A stretch of DNA of 37,897 nt. Origin: a bacterium (GTDB lineage: Bacteria > Electryoneota > RPQS01). Position numbers and translations under genes: made by a program. Under the pieces are notes generated by a model, which saw only the letters and a program-made list of their open reading frames with translations, was not told the DNA's origin and did not search any database. The stretch spans positions 1-37,897 of the forward strand of contig JADLDM010000029.1 of assembly GCA_020846695.1 (NCBI GenBank), written 5' to 3'. Positions 30,340-37,897 of the stretch are shown one piece after another (position 1 is the first letter of the stretch; each line of letters opens with the position of its first letter).

Positions 30340-30957
30340 ATGATCTACGAAACCCATCCCGACAATCCCAATCCACGCGCGATACAAAAAGCTATCGCGG
30401 CTTTGGAGCGCGGTGAATTGATCGCCTACGCAACCGATACCGTGTACGGTCTCGGCTGTGATATTCACTCGAAGTCCGCTGTAGAACGCGCGCTTGCCCT
30501 CAAGGGCTACTCGAAATATCACGCGCTGTCATTTCTCTGCGCAGACCTTTCCGACATCTCGAACTTTGCCCGCGTAGAGACTCCGGTTTACAAAATGCTC
30601 AAGCGCTGCCTGCCCGGACCTTACACCTTCATTCTTCCCGCCACGCGCGAAGTCCCGAAGATGCTCATCTCAAAACAGAAGACTGTCGGTCTACGCGTGC
30701 CCGATCATCCCGTCTGTCGTGACCTCCTGAAAGCCTTCGGAAGACCGATTCTCTCAACTTCCGTAACCGATCGCGACGGCCATGTCATTGGCGATCCCTC
30801 TGAAATCCAGGAAATCTGGGGAGAGCAGGTCGCAGTCATCCTCGATTCAGGAATTATCGAGTCGAAATCCTCCACCGTCGTGGATTGCACCGCCGAAGAT
30901 GAACCCGTCATCCTCCGCGAAGGAAAAGGCGACATCACTCTGATCTACTACGGATAG
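30340..30957 (+). CDS. YciO / Sua5-YrdC family protein
   Basis: A 205-residue YrdC-fold protein. The N-terminal IHPDNPQ-like start (ETHPDNPNPRAI), ATDTVYGLGCDI (about 31-42), the middle block LKRCLPGPYTFILPATREVPKML (about 87-109) and the C-terminal VILREGKGDI strongly resemble YciO. YrdC/TsaC makes threonylcarbamoyl-AMP for tRNA t6A; YciO paralogues share the fold and, in published work, show weak or no such activity. The KGYSKYHALSFLC segment replaces the KxR(x)2 active motif (KR..P) of TsaC, so the assignment to YciO rather than TsaC is reasonable. Cytoplasmic. AGAGG lies eight bases before ATG 30340. Confidence 0.88.
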   Translation: MIYETHPDNPNPRAIQKAIAALERGELIAYATDTVYGLGCDIHSKSAVERALALKGYSKYHALSFLCADLSDISNFARVETPVYKMLKRCLPGPYTFILPATREVPKMLISKQKTVGLRVPDHPVCRDLLKAFGRPILSTSVTDRDGHVIGDPSEIQEIWGEQVAVILDSGIIESKSSTVVDCTAEDEPVILREGKGDITLIYYG

Positions 30958-30980: not shown

Positions 30981-31052
30981 CCCGCCGAGTCGGGTTAAGC
31001 GCTCCCTTTCTTGATCAACTGCACTCGGTTCTGCGCGCAACCCGACCGAAAC
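30981..31052. repeat. 72-nt hairpin repeat, copy A
   Basis: CCCGCCGAG-TCGGGTT ... AACCCGA-CCGAAAC. The arms and flanks match copies B-D but the loop has diverged; inner GCGC/GCGC pairing is kept. Confidence 0.85.
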
Positions 31053-31390
31053 GATACGCCACACCGCCGTCGCCGAGCGGGGATTAAGCGCGACCAAGTA
31101 GCCCAAGAGAACTAAGAAATGTGCCTGTCGCGCGGTTCCCCGCCGGAATCCGCTCCGCTTTCATACCTCATACCTCTGACCTCATACCCCTCCTTCCGCG
31201 CACCCATTGCACTCAATGCCTCTCTTTTCATAGCCTATTTGCAAGAACAGCCACCACCCCGCCAAACCCCTTCACATCACCCTACGCAATCTTCTATAAA
31301 ACAATACTATGTGCAGACTCCCCTAACGGCGATATTGTCACACAAAGCCGTTCTTTTTGGTGCGCCGTTTGCCAATTCGGATTCAAGACC

Positions 31391-31418
31391 TTGAATTGCC
31401 CAAATATTAGTCTATATT
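31391..31418 (+). promoter_or_regulatory. predicted promoter of the Omp28-like gene
   Basis: TTGAAT, 16-nt spacer, TATATT; expected start near 31425, leader about 52 nt, GGAGG at 31468-31472. Confidence 0.6.
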
Positions 31419-31476
31419 TAGCTTAAATAGGTGGTTTTCCGGTTTCTCTTCTTGCACTCGCTAACTTGGAGGATGT

Positions 31477-33528
31477 ATGAATCGTAACGTCAGATCTCTT
31501 TTTGCAGCAATCCTTCTGCTCGTAACTTCCGCTGTCTCATTCGGTGCGCAGCGTCAAGCCGTTCTCGTGGACGGATTCACTCAATGGAATTGCGGCCCCT
31601 GCGCAAGCTGGAATCCGCAAGAGAACACAATTCTCGATGCGTTCACGCGCGATACCGTCGTCGCCATCAAAACACACGGATGGTGGCCCGGCGCAAATAA
31701 CGATGCTTTCCATCTCTGGAATGTCGCCGAATCTACACAACGTATTAACTACTACGGCTGCAACTGGGTGCCGTGGGTGATGGTTGACGGCATCATTGAT
31801 CTCTCCAATGTCAATGCAACCGGGTTGCGCAACGGTGTGCGTCAACGTTACACCACTCCTTCACCCTGCACCATTGATGGCCTCGCTGCCTCGACGTCCG
31901 GACCAAATCAGGTGTCGGTCTTTGGGACCATCAATGCCGAACAGGATATTACCGGCATGAGATTGATGGTTGTGCTGATTTCTGATCTCATTACTTATCA
32001 ATCGGCTCCCGGCTCGAACGGCGAGACCCAATTCCCGGAAGTTTTCCGCGACGCTTATCCCAACTTCAACACAGGTGAAGTCATCGCTGCAAGCCCCGGA
32101 ACTCCCTATCAGTTTGAAGCAACTCTGAATCGCGATCCATCTTGGGATGTGGAAAACCTGACCGTCATCGCCTTCGTGCAGAACAACTCTACGCACGAAG
32201 TCTTGCAGGCCAATTACACGTTCGTCTCACAAGACTACGCGTTCTCGTTCACTTCCGAAGAGCCGCAGCAGAATATTGTTCCGACCGACGGCGGCAATGT
32301 GAACTACACCTACTACATTGATAACGTCGGCCTGCTGCAAGATACCTACACCGTGGACCTCGCCGGTAACTGGCCTACAGGATGGACGCACACCGTGGAA
32401 GCCAATGGCGTCCCCGCGAATCCCTCCTCGATTGATGTCACTGTACCGTCGCAAGGAACCGCGACAATCACCGTCCGCATTAATCCCAACGGCAACGGCG
32501 GTAATTGCGCTTTTGCTGTGTCGGCAACCAGCGTGGGACAACCGCTCTTCACTGCTTCGTATGACTATCGCCTCATGTCCGGCCTCGATATTCTCATCGT
32601 GGACGGCGATGGCGGCGATGACTACGAAACCTACTACGAAGCAGCTTTCAACGACGCGGAAATCGCCGGTGCATGGGGCCGATGGGATACAGCGCTCGAC
32701 GCGCTCGACATCAGCCACCTGCAAGGCGTGGACGTGGTCGTCTGGTTCACCGGTGATATGTGGCAAGAAACTCTAACCCCCCTCGATCAACTGAATCTGC
32801 AAGACTATCTTGATCTCGGTGGCAAGCTCTTCATCTCCGGTCAGGGAATCGGATTCGATATGCGCAATGACCAGTTCTTTATTGACTACTTGCACGCGCA
32901 ATACAACCGCAACTTCCCGCAGGGCGTCTCCATCACGGGAGTTAACGGCTGGCCCTTCCAAACGATGTCTTTCGATATCACGGGCGGAACCGGAGCAAAT
33001 AATCAAACTCGCCAAACCGCTCTGCATCCGCGCGACGCAATGGCAATCCCGCTCTTCACCTACGATCAGCAGTATCAGGGCGAGACCTTTGAAGCCGGCC
33101 TCACCGTGGATAACGGAACCTATCGCGCTCTCTATCTCGGATTCGGCCTCGAAGCAATCAGCGCTGCTGAAGACCGCGCAGCATTGCTCGCAGCAGGAAT
33201 CAACTGGCTCATGACCGGACTCGATGCCCCCGAAGCTCCGAGCGCGACTCCCGCCGAGTTCTCACTGATGCAGAACTTCCCGAATCCGTTCAACCCCGAA
33301 ACCACGATCCCCTTCTCACTCCCCGTGCGCGCCGATGTGTCCGTCAAGATTCATGATCTGCTCGGACGCGAAGTCGCAACGCTCACACAGGGTGTGATGG
33401 ACGCGGGTTATCATGCGGTGAACTTCAATGCATCCGATCTCTCCAGCGGTGTCTATTTCTACACCGTGAAGGCTGTCGGCGGCAATGAAAACTTCTCCGC
33501 CACCCGCAAGCTCGTGCTGATGAAGTAA
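31477..33528 (+). CDS. exported Omp28-like thioredoxin-fold protein with C-terminal sorting domain
   Basis: A 683-residue exported protein. Signal peptide (MNRNVRSLFAAILLLVTSAVSFG), then a thioredoxin-like domain (about 26-125) with redox motif NCGPC (Cys39, Cys42) and a cis-Pro-type loop VPWVMVDG (about 98), as in Omp28-related proteins. Beta domains follow: one at 130-255, an NEW3/CARDB-like domain at 262-365, then an alpha/beta domain opening LDILIVDGDGGDDYETYY (about 370-590, with GGKLFISGQGIGFD). The sorting tail FSLMQNFPNPFNPET...LGREVATL...LMK ends the protein. It probably works at the cell surface or outside; disulphide or redox chemistry is possible from CGPC. It is monocistronic by its own promoter. 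Confidence 0.87.
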   Translation: MNRNVRSLFAAILLLVTSAVSFGAQRQAVLVDGFTQWNCGPCASWNPQENTILDAFTRDTVVAIKTHGWWPGANNDAFHLWNVAESTQRINYYGCNWVPWVMVDGIIDLSNVNATGLRNGVRQRYTTPSPCTIDGLAASTSGPNQVSVFGTINAEQDITGMRLMVVLISDLITYQSAPGSNGETQFPEVFRDAYPNFNTGEVIAASPGTPYQFEATLNRDPSWDVENLTVIAFVQNNSTHEVLQANYTFVSQDYAFSFTSEEPQQNIVPTDGGNVNYTYYIDNVGLLQDTYTVDLAGNWPTGWTHTVEANGVPANPSSIDVTVPSQGTATITVRINPNGNGGNCAFAVSATSVGQPLFTASYDYRLMSGLDILIVDGDGGDDYETYYEAAFNDAEIAGAWGRWDTALDALDISHLQGVDVVVWFTGDMWQETLTPLDQLNLQDYLDLGGKLFISGQGIGFDMRNDQFFIDYLHAQYNRNFPQGVSITGVNGWPFQTMSFDITGGTGANNQTRQTALHPRDAMAIPLFTYDQQYQGETFEAGLTVDNGTYRALYLGFGLEAISAAEDRAALLAAGINWLMTGLDAPEAPSATPAEFSLMQNFPNPFNPETTIPFSLPVRADVSVKIHDLLGREVATLTQGVMDAGYHAVNFNASDLSSGVYFYTVKAVGGNENFSATRKLVLMK

Positions 33529-33552
33529 ATCTTACTGCGCTTCCCCGCCGTT

Positions 33553-33578
33553 GTAGGGGCGGGTCCCCCGACCCGCCC
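33553..33578. repeat. GTAGGGG-headed palindrome
   Basis: GTAG then GGGCGGGT-CCCCCG-ACCCGCCC, an 8-bp perfect stem, preceded by GTT as in the minus-strand hldD terminator. No T-run. Confidence 0.75.
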
Positions 33579-33641
33579 GATGCTTAAACAAATGACGGCC
33601 TTCGCACTGCAATCTTTGACAGGTAAGTAATCTCTCAATCA

Positions 33642-33684
33642 AGCGCCGCCGGCCCAATTCGCGGTCGGCGGCGCTCTCCTTTTC
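33642..33684 (+). terminator. strong hairpin between the two sorting-tail genes (terminator or leader attenuator)
   Basis: AGCGCCGCCGGCC pairs with GGTCGGCGGCGCT (13 bp, one G-T), loop CCAATTCGC, followed by CTCCTTTTC. It ends only a few bases before the GGAGG of the next gene, so it may end upstream transcripts or sit in the leader of the next mRNA. Confidence 0.7.
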
Positions 33685-33702
33685 TTGGAGGGGAAAGGAC
33701 AC

Positions 33703-35424
33703 ATGAAGAACTTCTCAAACACTCTCAGAGGATCAACCATCCTCGCACTGCTCGCAACGCTCATCCTCTCTTGGCCATTCCTCGGTGAACGACCGCACAC
33801 TTCCGCCAACGCTTGTTGGACAAACTACCTCATCGAATGCTTCGACTCCGTCGCAACCGCTTGGCCCTGGCAGAGACCCACGGGACGCGCATGGAGAGTG
33901 AATCCCCCCATTCAACAACTGACCTGGGGAATTCAGGATCGCGTCTACAGCGTTGGCCTCGAATCCTATTGCGGAGATGATGACGACCAAGCCTGCTGGT
34001 GTCTTGGCGGCCCGCGTACGGAAGACCCCGACTTCGATCTCTATCCCGCGAACCTCAACACCTACGTGACCTACGGCCCCCTAAACACTACAACTTCGCA
34101 ATATGGCCGCGTGAGATTCGTGCTTTATCTCGAAAACGCTTTGGACATTGGAGATTCCATCTTCTGGGGCGCCGATTCCGTCTTCAGCCTCGGCACGTCA
34201 CCCACGCATGTCTGGGTGGACAGCTCCATCAAAATGGAGACCTCAAACGGTTGGGTCATAATTGACATGGATCTTGCCGACTTGAACCGCATGAACGGAG
34301 CAGGCTTTGACGGAGACAGCGTCTCGGCGTTGGGCCGTCCCGCCGTCTATGTCTTCTGGTGGTTCAAAGCAAACAACAACACGCAGCGGGGAGTCGGCAG
34401 CTTCATTGACGACGTGATCATCGCACTCGATGACGGCTCGCTCGATTGCAGAGGCGGGAGCATTCAAACAAGAAATCTCGATTCGGTATCCATGCCGGAA
34501 AACATTGTTGTCGGAGACTCCATTCTCGCCATGTACACATGGAATGTCTGCGACGGAGGTGCGCCGATGTATCCGCCCTTCCATGTGCAATTCCTCGTGG
34601 ATGATGAAGTAGTTTCGGATTCCGTAGTTTCAGACATTCTCCCCGGTGTTTCGCAATCCTGGTGGTCGCCGCCTCTGGTCTTCGAGACCGAAGGCACGCA
34701 TGTTCTCACCGTGAATGTTGATCCGCTGAACGAAGTCGCCGAAGGGAACGAAAACAACAACGTCGCAAATCTAAACATCTCTGTCCTGGCGTTCAATGAT
34801 CCCCCCGTCTTCACGTGGCTGTCCCCCGGACCGCTCGCGCCGGGTGGAGATACGTTATTTGCTTATGGTGAGGGCTTGTTGCGCTGGGAATGCTATGACC
34901 CCGATGACGACGCGAGCATCTCGATCTATTATGACACGGACAATCAGGGATGCACCGGCCCCTTCGTCCCAGGCGGAAACACTCTCGTTGAACACGACGG
35001 AGTGGACTCACTGCTTTGGACCGTTACGAGTTTCGTCCCCGGCAGCATTCGTTGGCCTTACGCAATTGTGCAGGACGGTCAGAACTTCCTCTGTCAGTAT
35101 GCCGATTTCCCGATGCAGGCAATGTCAACCGGAACCGGTGAAGATGTCTTTGTGCCCGTGACGTTCCATCTTAATCAGAACTTCCCGAATCCCTTCAATC
35201 CGTCAACCGACATCCAGTTCGGCATCACAAAGCCCGGAGCAACAACACTGAGAGTGTTCGATCTGCTGGGGCGCGAAATCCGCACGCTGATTGATAACGA
35301 CCTCACTCCGGGAATCTATCACGCGCATTTTGATGCTGGCGCCGATCTCGCTTCAGGTGTCTATCTCTATCGCCTCGATGCTCCCGAAGGAACTCTGCAA
35401 GGCAAGATGATCCTGATGAAGTGA
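33703..35424 (+). CDS. exported protein with CARDB-like domain and C-terminal sorting domain
   Basis: A 573-residue exported protein. ATG 33703 is chosen over the track's TTG 33685 because GGAGG at 33688-33692 and AAAGGA lie just upstream of it. A long signal sequence (to about residue 37) precedes a Cys- and Trp-rich beta region (38-240; LESYCGDDDDQACWCLGG). A CARDB-like domain (about 250-360) has VGDSILAMYTWNVCDGG and VDPLNEVAEGNENNNVA. After another beta domain (365-480) comes the sorting tail FHLNQNFPNPFNPST...LGREIRTL...LMK (487-573). No enzyme motif is visible; an adhesive or structural surface role is likely. It is followed by several hairpin repeats and a terminator. Confidence 0.83.
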   Translation: MKNFSNTLRGSTILALLATLILSWPFLGERPHTSANACWTNYLIECFDSVATAWPWQRPTGRAWRVNPPIQQLTWGIQDRVYSVGLESYCGDDDDQACWCLGGPRTEDPDFDLYPANLNTYVTYGPLNTTTSQYGRVRFVLYLENALDIGDSIFWGADSVFSLGTSPTHVWVDSSIKMETSNGWVIIDMDLADLNRMNGAGFDGDSVSALGRPAVYVFWWFKANNNTQRGVGSFIDDVIIALDDGSLDCRGGSIQTRNLDSVSMPENIVVGDSILAMYTWNVCDGGAPMYPPFHVQFLVDDEVVSDSVVSDILPGVSQSWWSPPLVFETEGTHVLTVNVDPLNEVAEGNENNNVANLNISVLAFNDPPVFTWLSPGPLAPGGDTLFAYGEGLLRWECYDPDDDASISIYYDTDNQGCTGPFVPGGNTLVEHDGVDSLLWTVTSFVPGSIRWPYAIVQDGQNFLCQYADFPMQAMSTGTGEDVFVPVTFHLNQNFPNPFNPSTDIQFGITKPGATTLRVFDLLGREIRTLIDNDLTPGIYHAHFDAGADLASGVYLYRLDAPEGTLQGKMILMK

Positions 35425-35444
35425 CTTCTCCGTAACCATCGAGA

Positions 35445-35516
35445 CCCGCCGAGTCGGGTTCGCGCTCGATGATTGATTCAACCGCGCAAATCTATCGCGC
35501 GTAACCCGACCGAAAC
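35445..35516. repeat. 72-nt hairpin repeat, copy B
   Basis: Arms TCGGGTT / AACCCGA with inner CGCGC/GCGCG pairing; same flanks as the other copies. Confidence 0.88.
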
Positions 35517-35527
35517 TGAAGAAATAC

Positions 35528-35557
35528 GAAGGGGCGACCATCTCGGTCGCCCCTTCT
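35528..35557. terminator. hairpin terminator candidate
   Basis: GAAGGGGCGACC-ATCTC-GGTCGCCCCTTC, a perfect 12-bp stem followed by a pyrimidine-rich tract (TCTCGTCTCCCC) rather than a pure T-run. It would end the gene finishing at 35424. Confidence 0.65.
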
Positions 35558-35589
35558 CTCGTCTCCCCTTCTGTCATTCTAAACCTTCA

Positions 35590-35661
35590 CCCGCCGAGCC
35601 GGGTTCGCGCTCGACGATTGATTCAACAGCGCAAATCTACCGCGCGTAACCCGGCCGAAAC
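35590..35661. repeat. 72-nt hairpin repeat, copy C (tandem with D)
   Basis: Arms CCGGGTT / AACCCGG: the closing T-A pair of copies A/B is C-G here. Identical to copy D. Confidence 0.9.
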
Positions 35662-35671
35662 TGAACCTTCA

Positions 35672-35743
35672 CCCGCCGAGCCGGGTTCGCGCTCGACGAT
35701 TGATTCAACAGCGCAAATCTACCGCGCGTAACCCGGCCGAAAC
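35672..35743. repeat. 72-nt hairpin repeat, copy D
   Basis: Direct repeat of copy C with a period of 82 nt; the intervening TGAACCTTCA is part of the unit. Confidence 0.9.
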
Positions 35744-35761: not shown

Positions 35762-37654
35762 TCACCCTTGTTCCGCCCTCACCAAAAACACCGGCACCTT
35801 CACCTTGTGACGCACACGAGTCGCCGTCGCGCCGAACAAAATATCCTGTATCATCCGGTGGCCGTGCGTGCCCATCACCAATAAATCAGCTTTCTCTTCT
35901 TCGACAATCCGCACAATCTCATCCGGCGGATTGCCATACCCCATCACCATGCGCGCGGGCAAACCCAACTCCTGCAAATTGCGTTCGAGTCTCCTCATGT
36001 ACGCTTCGTCCCCCACCACTTCGTGATCTTCAGACTCCTCCTTCCACAGGCGCGGCCCCATGCCGTCGGCAACATGCACAAGCAGAACTTCCGATCCGTA
36101 CAGCCGCGAAAGAGAGATCGTCTCCTTCAACAATTGCTCATCGTAGCGCGATACCTCCAGCGCAACCGCAATCCGCTTGTATTCTCTGGCGGGAATTTCC
36201 AGCGAAAGCTCCGGCGCATGTTCCAAGCGGCGCTTCTGCTTGCGAATGTAGGGAATTACCAAAACATACAGAAGCAGAAGAGCAAGCGCTACAACAGCCG
36301 CGAACACAAGCATATGGTACCACATCACTCCGCCCTCCGATGATGCAACCCACTCGGAAAGAATGCTCGTCACCAATCTGACATTCAAGGCCACAATCAC
36401 AATCGCCGAAATCCAGGCCAGCGCCTTCACCCAGGTCTTGTTCGCAAATTCCCCCATTTTCGCGCGGTCGCTCGTAAAGTGAATCAGCGGAATAATCGCG
36501 AAGGGCAACTGCATCGAAAGCACAACCTGAGAAAGAATCAAAAGCTGATACGTTCCCGCGTCACCCATAATTGCCAGCGTGACCACCGCCGGAACAATTG
36601 CAAGCGAGCGCGTGATAATTCGTCTTAACCACGGGCGAATCTTCAGATTGACGAATCCTTCCATCACCACCTGTCCCGCAAGCGTGCCCGTCAAAGTCGA
36701 ACTCTGCCCGCTGGCCAGAAGCGCAATCGCAAAGGCCGCGCTCGCCGCTGCCGTGCCAAGAAGCGGAGTCAGAAGTTCGTGCGCCTGCTGAATCTCCGTC
36801 ACCTCTATTCCATTCCGATAGAACGTTGCCGCTGCCAAAATCAGAATCGCCGCATTCACAAAAAACGCCGCGTTCAGCGCAATCACGGAGTCAATCAAAT
36901 TGTATTTGCAGGCCTGCTTGATGTGGGCCTTTGTCTGTCCGACTGCGCGCGTCTGCACCAGAGCCGAATGCAAATAGAGATTATGAGGCATCACCGTCGC
37001 GCCCAAAATCCCAATCGCAACATAGAGACTCTCTTTGTTCAGCCGAGGAACAAACCCTGTAAGGATTCCGCTCACTTCCGGCTTGCTCAAAATCATCTCG
37101 ATGAAAAAACAAGCTCCGATCGTCATCACCAAGGTCAGAATAAACGCTTCAACTTTCCGAATCCCGAGATGCTGAAAATACAAAAGCAGCATCACGTCCG
37201 CGGCAGTCAATACAACTCCCCACATCAACGGCATTCCAAACAGCAAATTCAGCGCAATCGCAGTTCCCAAGACTTCCGCCAAGTCACAGGCAACAATCGC
37301 AATCTCGCAGACAATCCAAAGAGCAATCCCTACCGGTCGCGGGTAGGCTTCACGACACGCCCGCGCCAAATCTCTTCCCGTCACAATCCCTAATCGCGCA
37401 CAAAGCGTCTGAAGCAGCACCGCAATCAGATTGCTCATCAGGAGAACCCAGATCAGCTGATAGCCGAAGCGCGAGCCGCCTTCTATATCCGTCGCCCAAT
37501 TCCCCGGGGCCATGTAACCCACGCTCACCAAATACGCCGGCCCCGCAAATGCAAATAGCCTGCGGAACAAACTCACCTTATCCGGAATCTGCACCGAACG
37601 ATGCACTTCCGAGAGCGATACGTGATCATTTGTTTTGTTCATGGATTCTCTCAT
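35762..37654 (-). CDS. Nramp-family metal transporter fused to a C-terminal universal stress protein domain; canonical DPGN Asp is Ala
   Basis: A 630-residue fusion. Residues about 30-465 form an eleven- or twelve-helix Nramp (MntH-like) transporter. In TM1 the canonical DPGN motif reads VGYMAPGNWATD: residue 49 is Ala (codon GCC) instead of the metal-binding Asp. The TM6 motif GATVMPHNLYLHS (about 218-230) is intact. Residues about 488-628 form a UspA domain (YKRIAVALEVS; GTHG-x9-GA ATP-binding loop). Nramp proteins import Mn2+ or Fe2+ with protons; Usp domains bind ATP and often sense stress. Loss of the Asp should alter metal or proton coupling, so substrate is uncertain. ATG 37654 is used here; ATG 37642 is equally possible. 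The 136-bp tandem repeat lies immediately upstream. Confidence 0.9.
   Translation of the reverse strand: MRESMNKTNDHVSLSEVHRSVQIPDKVSLFRRLFAFAGPAYLVSVGYMAPGNWATDIEGGSRFGYQLIWVLLMSNLIAVLLQTLCARLGIVTGRDLARACREAYPRPVGIALWIVCEIAIVACDLAEVLGTAIALNLLFGMPLMWGVVLTAADVMLLLYFQHLGIRKVEAFILTLVMTIGACFFIEMILSKPEVSGILTGFVPRLNKESLYVAIGILGATVMPHNLYLHSALVQTRAVGQTKAHIKQACKYNLIDSVIALNAAFFVNAAILILAAATFYRNGIEVTEIQQAHELLTPLLGTAAASAAFAIALLASGQSSTLTGTLAGQVVMEGFVNLKIRPWLRRIITRSLAIVPAVVTLAIMGDAGTYQLLILSQVVLSMQLPFAIIPLIHFTSDRAKMGEFANKTWVKALAWISAIVIVALNVRLVTSILSEWVASSEGGVMWYHMLVFAAVVALALLLLYVLVIPYIRKQKRRLEHAPELSLEIPAREYKRIAVALEVSRYDEQLLKETISLSRLYGSEVLLVHVADGMGPRLWKEESEDHEVVGDEAYMRRLERNLQELGLPARMVMGYGNPPDEIVRIVEEEKADLLVMGTHGHRMIQDILFGATATRVRHKVKVPVFLVRAEQG
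37508..37510 (-). other. Asp-to-Ala codon in Nramp TM1 motif
   Basis: On the minus strand the codons ATG-GCC-CCG-GGG-AAT read M-A-P-G-N. GAC to GCC is a single base change from the family consensus. Confidence 0.9.
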
Positions 37655-37655
37655 T

Positions 37656-37897
37656 CCCCCCGCGATGCGCGGGGGGACAGGGGGGTAAGACTCACTGCTT
37701 GCTGAATGTCAGTCCGATTCCAAACTACTATCGGCGGCCTCCGGCCGTCTCAACTCCGTTGCCGAGCAGGGATCGCACTCCCTCTGATTGTCCCCCCGCG
37801 ATGCGCGGGGGGACAGGGGGGTAAGACTCACTGCTTGCTGAATGTCAGTCCGATTCCAAACTACTATCGGCGGCCTCCGGCCGTCTCAACTCCGTTG
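37656..37897. repeat. 136-bp tandem repeat truncated by window edge
   Basis: The unit starting at 37656 recurs at 37792 and matches through the last base (106 nt visible), without a mismatch that I can see. Each unit has a C-run/G-run palindrome (six C, GCGATGCGC, six G), a unique stretch (TAAGACTCACTGCTTGC...), a GGCGGCC/GGCCGTC palindrome and CCGTTGCCGAGCAGGGATCG. It abuts the start of the Nramp gene and is its 5' region. No coding frame is convincing. Confidence 0.9.

Follow-up and report, generated by a model that had tools for sequence, protein, structure and literature searches.

A probable REP element with a non-GTAG tag and an unusually long loop in a little-known bacterial order

The window analysed here, a stretch of 37,897 nt, is one contig (C29) of a 2.5-Mb genome that is 81% complete and distributed over 215 contigs. 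Four copies of a 72-nt repeat were confirmed at the positions given in an initial annotation of the sequence (Table 1). Copy A starts 24 nt past the stop codon of an ORF (30340-30957), copy B starts 21 nt past the stop codon of a second ORF (33685-35424), and copies C and D lie between this second ORF and a convergent one (35762-37654). Copies C and D are identical and lie in tandem as two 82-nt units, and they are therefore not independent of each other. The T-A pair that closes the arms of copies A and B is exchanged for C-G in copies C and D, as claimed in the annotation. Directly downstream of copy A we found a related element, here called type II, that the annotation had not listed. It has the CGCCGA foot of the four copies and a different stem (GCGGGGA/TCCCCGC), with an inner stem of GCGCGAC/GTCGCGC. 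Two further features were seen in this part of the window. A perfect strong hairpin between copies B and C (35528-35556, GAAGGGGCGACC...GGTCGCCCCTTC; fold z-score -7.4) is terminator-like on the minus strand. At the contig end, a 107-nt exact direct repeat (37655-37761 and 37791-37897) encloses a degenerate CCGA-type element; this could be a true tandem arrangement or an artefact of assembly at the end of the contig.

Table 1. Positions of the repeats in the window, and of the repeats and transposase gene at the G007 locus
Feature	Sequence	Position	Strand	Remarks
Copy A, long-loop CCGA-foot element (probable REP)	Window	30981-31052	+	Arms TCGGGTT/AACCCGA; AA/GC internal mismatch; model R1, 61.4 bits
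Copy B	Window	35445-35516	+	Arms TCGGGTT/AACCCGA; model, 82.1 bits
Copy C	Window	35590-35661	+	Arms CCGGGTT/AACCCGG; model, 85.3 bits
Copy D	Window	35672-35743	+	Identical to C, in tandem with C; model, 85.3 bits
Related type II element	Window	31069-31150	+	GCCGAGCGGGGATTAAGCGCGAC...GTCGCGCGGTTCCCCGCCGGAATC; model, 19.7 bits, E 0.006
Classical GTAG REP	Window	33553-33578	+	GTAGGGGCGGGTCCCCCGACCCGCCC; the same repeat flanks the RAYT of contig C36 (L032)
Element	G007 L088	1360-1421	+	Covariance model
Element	G007 L088	1437-1498	+	Covariance model
RAYT gene, 174 aa	G007 L088 (contig C2)	1501-2025		Between forward and reverse elements
Element	G007 L088	2026-2087	-	Covariance model
Element	G007 L088	2091-2152	-	Covariance model
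Element	G007 L088	2156-2217	-	Covariance model

Read on the + strand, the element consists of Y-CGCCG-A-G, a stem of about eight pairs, a 2x2 mismatch that is AA/GC in many copies, an upper stem, the loop and (G)CCG(A/G)AA-Y-C. The foot CGCCGA(G) is present in all copies, and whether it is written as CCGA or CGAG turns on counting the next G-C pair into the stem. Conservation extends from the pyrimidine before CGCCGA to the YCT after CCGAAA, outside of which the flanks are random, and 22 flank and arm positions are invariant. The 5′ foot, the bulged A and the AA/GC mismatch make the element asymmetric between strands. An inner GCGC stem, described in the annotation as kept, is not universal, as many copies have GC alone or junction variants (CGCGC/GCGCG with a bulged T, or GCGC/GCGC with a bulged AT). 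The arms were 98% identical where the loops were 83% identical, a difference on which we did not rely because the arm-based search biases it. The same genome carries ten occurrences of a short form of 37-39 nt (e.g. GCCGAGCCGGGTTAAGGCTTTGCGCAACCCGGCCGAAA), for which DNA folding gave the same plan with the A bulged. The 72-nt form is the long-loop version of this short form.

Searches of the genome were carried out with a strict pattern, in which the flanks and GGGTT/AACCC were fixed and two stem pairs and the loop were free, and with a covariance model built from 41 copies. The strict pattern matched 49 times and the reversed pattern 0 times, indicating that the repeat is not a product of chance. 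With the covariance model there were 73 matches, which included about 57 long copies and at least 8-9 of the short form. Several copies sit at contig ends, as expected since repeats break assemblies. The long copies (49 to about 57) were mostly extragenic, and with crude gene calls none was clearly within a gene. Both orientations relative to genes were seen, with 13 of 34 copies between convergent and 6 of 34 between divergent genes. The proposal that the copies lie after gene ends holds in the window and is merely a mild tendency genome-wide. GC-rich hairpins past gene ends, as seen in the window, would also be expected of intrinsic transcription terminators that have a common sequence by coincidence. 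We consider this explanation very improbable, as the element continues into CCGAAAYCT without a T run in 46 copies, a terminator scan called none of the four window copies, and the 22 invariant positions are unneeded for termination.

The paired change in the window is weak on its own because it represents one kind of substitution in two copies. Copies from the same genome did little to strengthen it; RNAalifold identified a single covarying pair (37 CG, 2 UA and 2 UG), which is too little by itself. The relatives settle the question. In the alignment of model matches from relatives, whose fitting made use of the structure, compensated, two-sided changes were seen at 7 of 10 stem pairs and 99.7% of cells were paired, a level reached in 0 of 500 shuffles; sliding the partner by 1-3 columns gave 13-55% pairing. 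An independent test came from the two stem positions that the search patterns did not fix. These positions were Watson-Crick in 121 and 122 of 129 distinct sequences, and both values were higher than the maxima of 116 and 121 obtained in 5000 within-genome shuffles. The pairs were of the types C-G, T-A, A-T and G-C, plus T-G intermediates. These data indicate that the stem is kept as a structure and not only as a sequence, as had been suggested from the four copies. Additional paired substitutions and copies elsewhere, the absence of which was to count against that suggestion, were both looked for and both found.

Elsewhere in the order, the covariance model matched 22-99 times in each of nine genomes and once in G006; two genomes outside the order gave 1 and 0 matches. 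The short-form pattern was found in 8 of 13 genomes of the family or order and in 0 of 26 others in the phylum. When the strict pattern was applied to 84,980 GTDB species genomes, it matched at three places in CSMAG_2917 and at one in Modern_marine.mb.187, metagenome genomes that match G011 and G004, respectively. One further match, in Spirochaetales, was taken as chance since its stem (AAGGGTT/AACCCCG) pairs incompletely. Judged by these patterns, the element appears to be confined to the family and order. No neighborhood common to both sides was found between genera in a limited sample of 34 relative loci, which fits lineage-specific insertion. Because a close relative does not exist, we could not show an exact unoccupied site for the 72-nt element.

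The annotation had also suggested that a REP-type transposase be sought. Such a gene was found in G007, a genome of the same family as that of the window and of another genus, where it is flanked by the repeat. The forward pair of elements ends 2 nt ahead of the RAYT start codon, and three reverse copies follow the stop codon (Table 1). The protein matched Pfam Y1_Tnp over the cut-off and NCBIfam REP_Tyr_transpos with 79.9 bits, just under the cut-off of 80; its best match among solved structures was E. coli TnpA-REP (4er8), although this match was weak (E 0.017). This locus also bears on two other origins that a repeat of about 70 nt, interspersed and provided with inverted repeats, could have, namely as a MITE mobilized by a DDE transposase, which cuts double strands, or as a recombination site resembling the attC of integrons. 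The enzyme encoded between the G007 copies is a Y1 transposase, which is neither a DDE transposase nor a tyrosine recombinase. Moreover, the ends (5′ CGCCGAG and 3′ CCGAAAYCT) are not inverted repeats beyond the stem, the bulge is one-sided, and target duplication is not visible in the flanks inspected. The ends of attC-type sites read RYYYAAC...GTTRRRY, an arrangement that is the reverse of that in the element. We therefore give hardly any credence to an origin of either kind.

Related RAYTs, at 41-54% identity, form a clade of about 28 members that is spread over 10 genomes within the order; outside the order, scores drop sharply from >110 to 72 bits. Clade members contain the motifs HxH and YxxxNP (HUH/Y1, class 2 Y-x3-NP). 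At nearly all of the roughly 28 loci an inverted hairpin was common to both flanks, with an alignment score higher than that of shuffled flanks. These hairpins share the plan of the repeat and have different stems (CCGGGTT, CAGGGA, GGCAGAT, GCGGGGT, GGCGAAT and more), and their feet are CCGA, CCGC or CGGC. Stems beside sister RAYTs are identical or similar, and foot type, which was assigned by hand, tracks the RAYT tree with 9 changes compared to 15.7 when shuffled (0 of 200 shuffles as low). Long-loop elements adjoin the RAYTs of G007 C2 (62 nt), G003 C458 (61 nt) and G008 C149 (degenerate copies). In a sibling RAYT gene (L135, G003 C415, 1245-1850), the stretch from the HUH to the Tyr motif includes the gene's own REP three times, as inverted copies that keep the frame, which shows that such hairpins insert or spread locally. 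REP copies that lie in frame inside a RAYT gene have been published for subclass 2.4 RAYTs.

From the inverted copies flanking the G007 RAYT and the sister families at most of the 28 clade RAYTs, we conclude that the repeat is very probably a REP element, that is, a non-autonomous hairpin that a RAYT devoted to it (HUH/Y1, TnpA-REP) recognizes in single-stranded form. We observed that the copies are numerous and extragenic, that the stem is constrained as a structure, and that in relatives such hairpins flank the RAYT genes of one clade in inverted orientation. Because the foot is CGCCGA(G) rather than GT(A/G)G, the element falls outside the canonical GTAG REPs; it is a REP by genetic organization. 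Known TnpA-REP biochemistry, together with the anatomy of the element, suggests how a RAYT could cut and move it. The RAYT would bind the 5′ CGCCGA foot and the stem of one strand and would cut close to the pyrimidine-C dinucleotides that are conserved at its two ends; the element could thereby have been copied through the genome. Under the guide rule discussed for IS608 and REP-Mb, cutting at TC would be predicted for a foot that ends in GA, and the YC found at either end agrees with this prediction. No cognate RAYT of this clade was found in the 81% complete assembly that contains the window. It would have been lost or would be encoded in sequence absent from the assembly, and the copies in this genome may consequently be immobile relics.

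Compensatory changes that keep the stem would also be expected if the hairpins acted in transcripts, as 3′ UTR stabilizers, attenuators or regulatory RNA, and were selected at the RNA level. The mostly extragenic location, the excess of convergent (13/34) over divergent (6/34) placements, and the abundance of 70-nt forms in genomes that lack a cognate RAYT agree with this possibility. However, both orientations relative to genes occur, with six copies between divergent genes, the window contained no Rfam match at gathering scores, and direct inverted flanking of RAYT genes is left unexplained. We consider selection as a structured RNA to be improbable as the primary explanation, although RNA use after insertion can be a secondary role of a REP element.

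Total lengths across genera fell into tight classes of 31, 37-39, 59-62 and 67-73 nt, and the loops were unrelated in sequence; the model favors about 69 nt, and both exact patterns, which permitted about 31 to 85 nt, gave only these classes. Against the explanation as a RAYT-moved REP stands the presence of the abundant 67-73-nt form in G011 and G004, each with one clade RAYT beside a different REP, and in G002, which has no clade RAYT. One speculative reading, which we consider rather unlikely, is that the long forms are a subtype of their own under functional constraint, with selection acting on the length of the loop and not on its sequence. If so, these would be REPs in host use, or REPs moved in trans by a RAYT of other specificity.

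As a REP element, the repeat has its closest parallels in the enterobacterial REP (PU)/TnpA-REP system (RAYT group 2/subclass 2.2). In both cases the element is an imperfect hairpin of one strand, with copies that are extragenic, clustered, and inverted beside a RAYT gene encoding HUH and Y-x3-NP. The lower and upper stems are split by AA/GC in both systems, and in E. coli this mismatch is conserved and required for activity (PMC8266576). In contrast, the foot is CCGA (CGCCGA) here and GTAG in enterobacteria, and our element has an extra bulged A and a conserved 3′ CCGNAA. Its loops of 30-40 nt lead to a total of 67-73 nt, compared to 29-37 nt in E. coli, whose REP sequences have been described (PMC2817692). 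Like the GTAG and CGTC superfamilies (Di Nocera 2013, PMC3733652), it is a tagged palindrome of high copy number located downstream of genes, in a genome with several families; however, the CCGA tag fits neither consensus. Class 3 TnpA-Y1 genes, which are reported to be rare in Planctomycetes, Acidobacteria and Proteobacteria, also have atypical high-copy hairpins beside them, and CCGA, the foot of the family described here, fits their CnGA foot (Quentin 2018, PMC6006769); our sister families read CCGC or CGGC. The Y motif of class 3 ends in Q, whereas our clade has the class 2 signature Y-x3-NP. Gammaproteobacterial REP definitions require GT(A/G)G (PMC2817692, PMC3686654), and atypical feet have been reported for other classes (PMC6006769). 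The repeat is thus a REP/RAYT variant with a non-GTAG tag and an unusually long loop in a little-known bacterial order.

In E. coli TnpA-REP, residues R104 and Q95 contact GTAG (PMC6006769, PMC8266576). Alignment to 4er8 revealed that, in contrast to the E. coli protein, R104 is absent in 28 of 28 clade members (P in 25 of them, I or L in the rest) and Q95 in most of them. Two RAYTs beside GTAG repeats in the genome of the window, on contigs C36 and C25 (WQPRFHDRVIRDD), have kept both residues. The apparent loss of R104 and Q95 fits the changed tag as a correlation. The four RAYTs with CCGGGTT-stem REPs have a KRE motif in common, located in the helix that faces the mismatch; this is a lead that shared descent could account for. 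Since the GTAG tag is common to most described REP-RAYT pairs, it has been hard to learn how the transposase reads its tag. One RAYT clade within one order, with at least three feet (CCGA, CCGC and CGGC), many stems and matching changes in the GTAG-contacting protein region, provides a natural series for testing co-evolution of hairpin, tag and transposase, and for asking if the cutting site is dictated by the tag, as it is in IS200/IS605. With this order, the range of REPs that have non-GTAG feet and long loops now includes a lineage represented by metagenomes alone.

The genome of the window carries other REP families. Three of its RAYTs, on contigs C197 and C36 (both found by Pfam) and C25, were considered as cognates and rejected because other repeats, GTAG or CTAG-type, flank them. 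The GTAG REP, also present in the window (Table 1), is the second REP family of this genome and has its own RAYTs. On contig C197 (L031, around 1100-1950), a RAYT is flanked by CTAG-tagged hairpins (CTAGGTTCGACC...GGTCGAAC), which make up another REP family whose tag is not GTAG. The third RAYT (L178, contig C25, 1150-1716) is flanked by GTAGTGCCGCACTGCGTGCGC repeats that are partly duplicated downstream. We also observed a GTAG REP nested in the loop of a CCGA-type REP (G001:C17:78760-78816). Finally, in two unrelated locations (L042 upstream of the element at 1000, and L034 upstream of 1501), the CCGA element is directly adjoined by a GTAG-like REP ending in GCCGCCCGTGTT, which suggests that the two form a composite mosaic unit.
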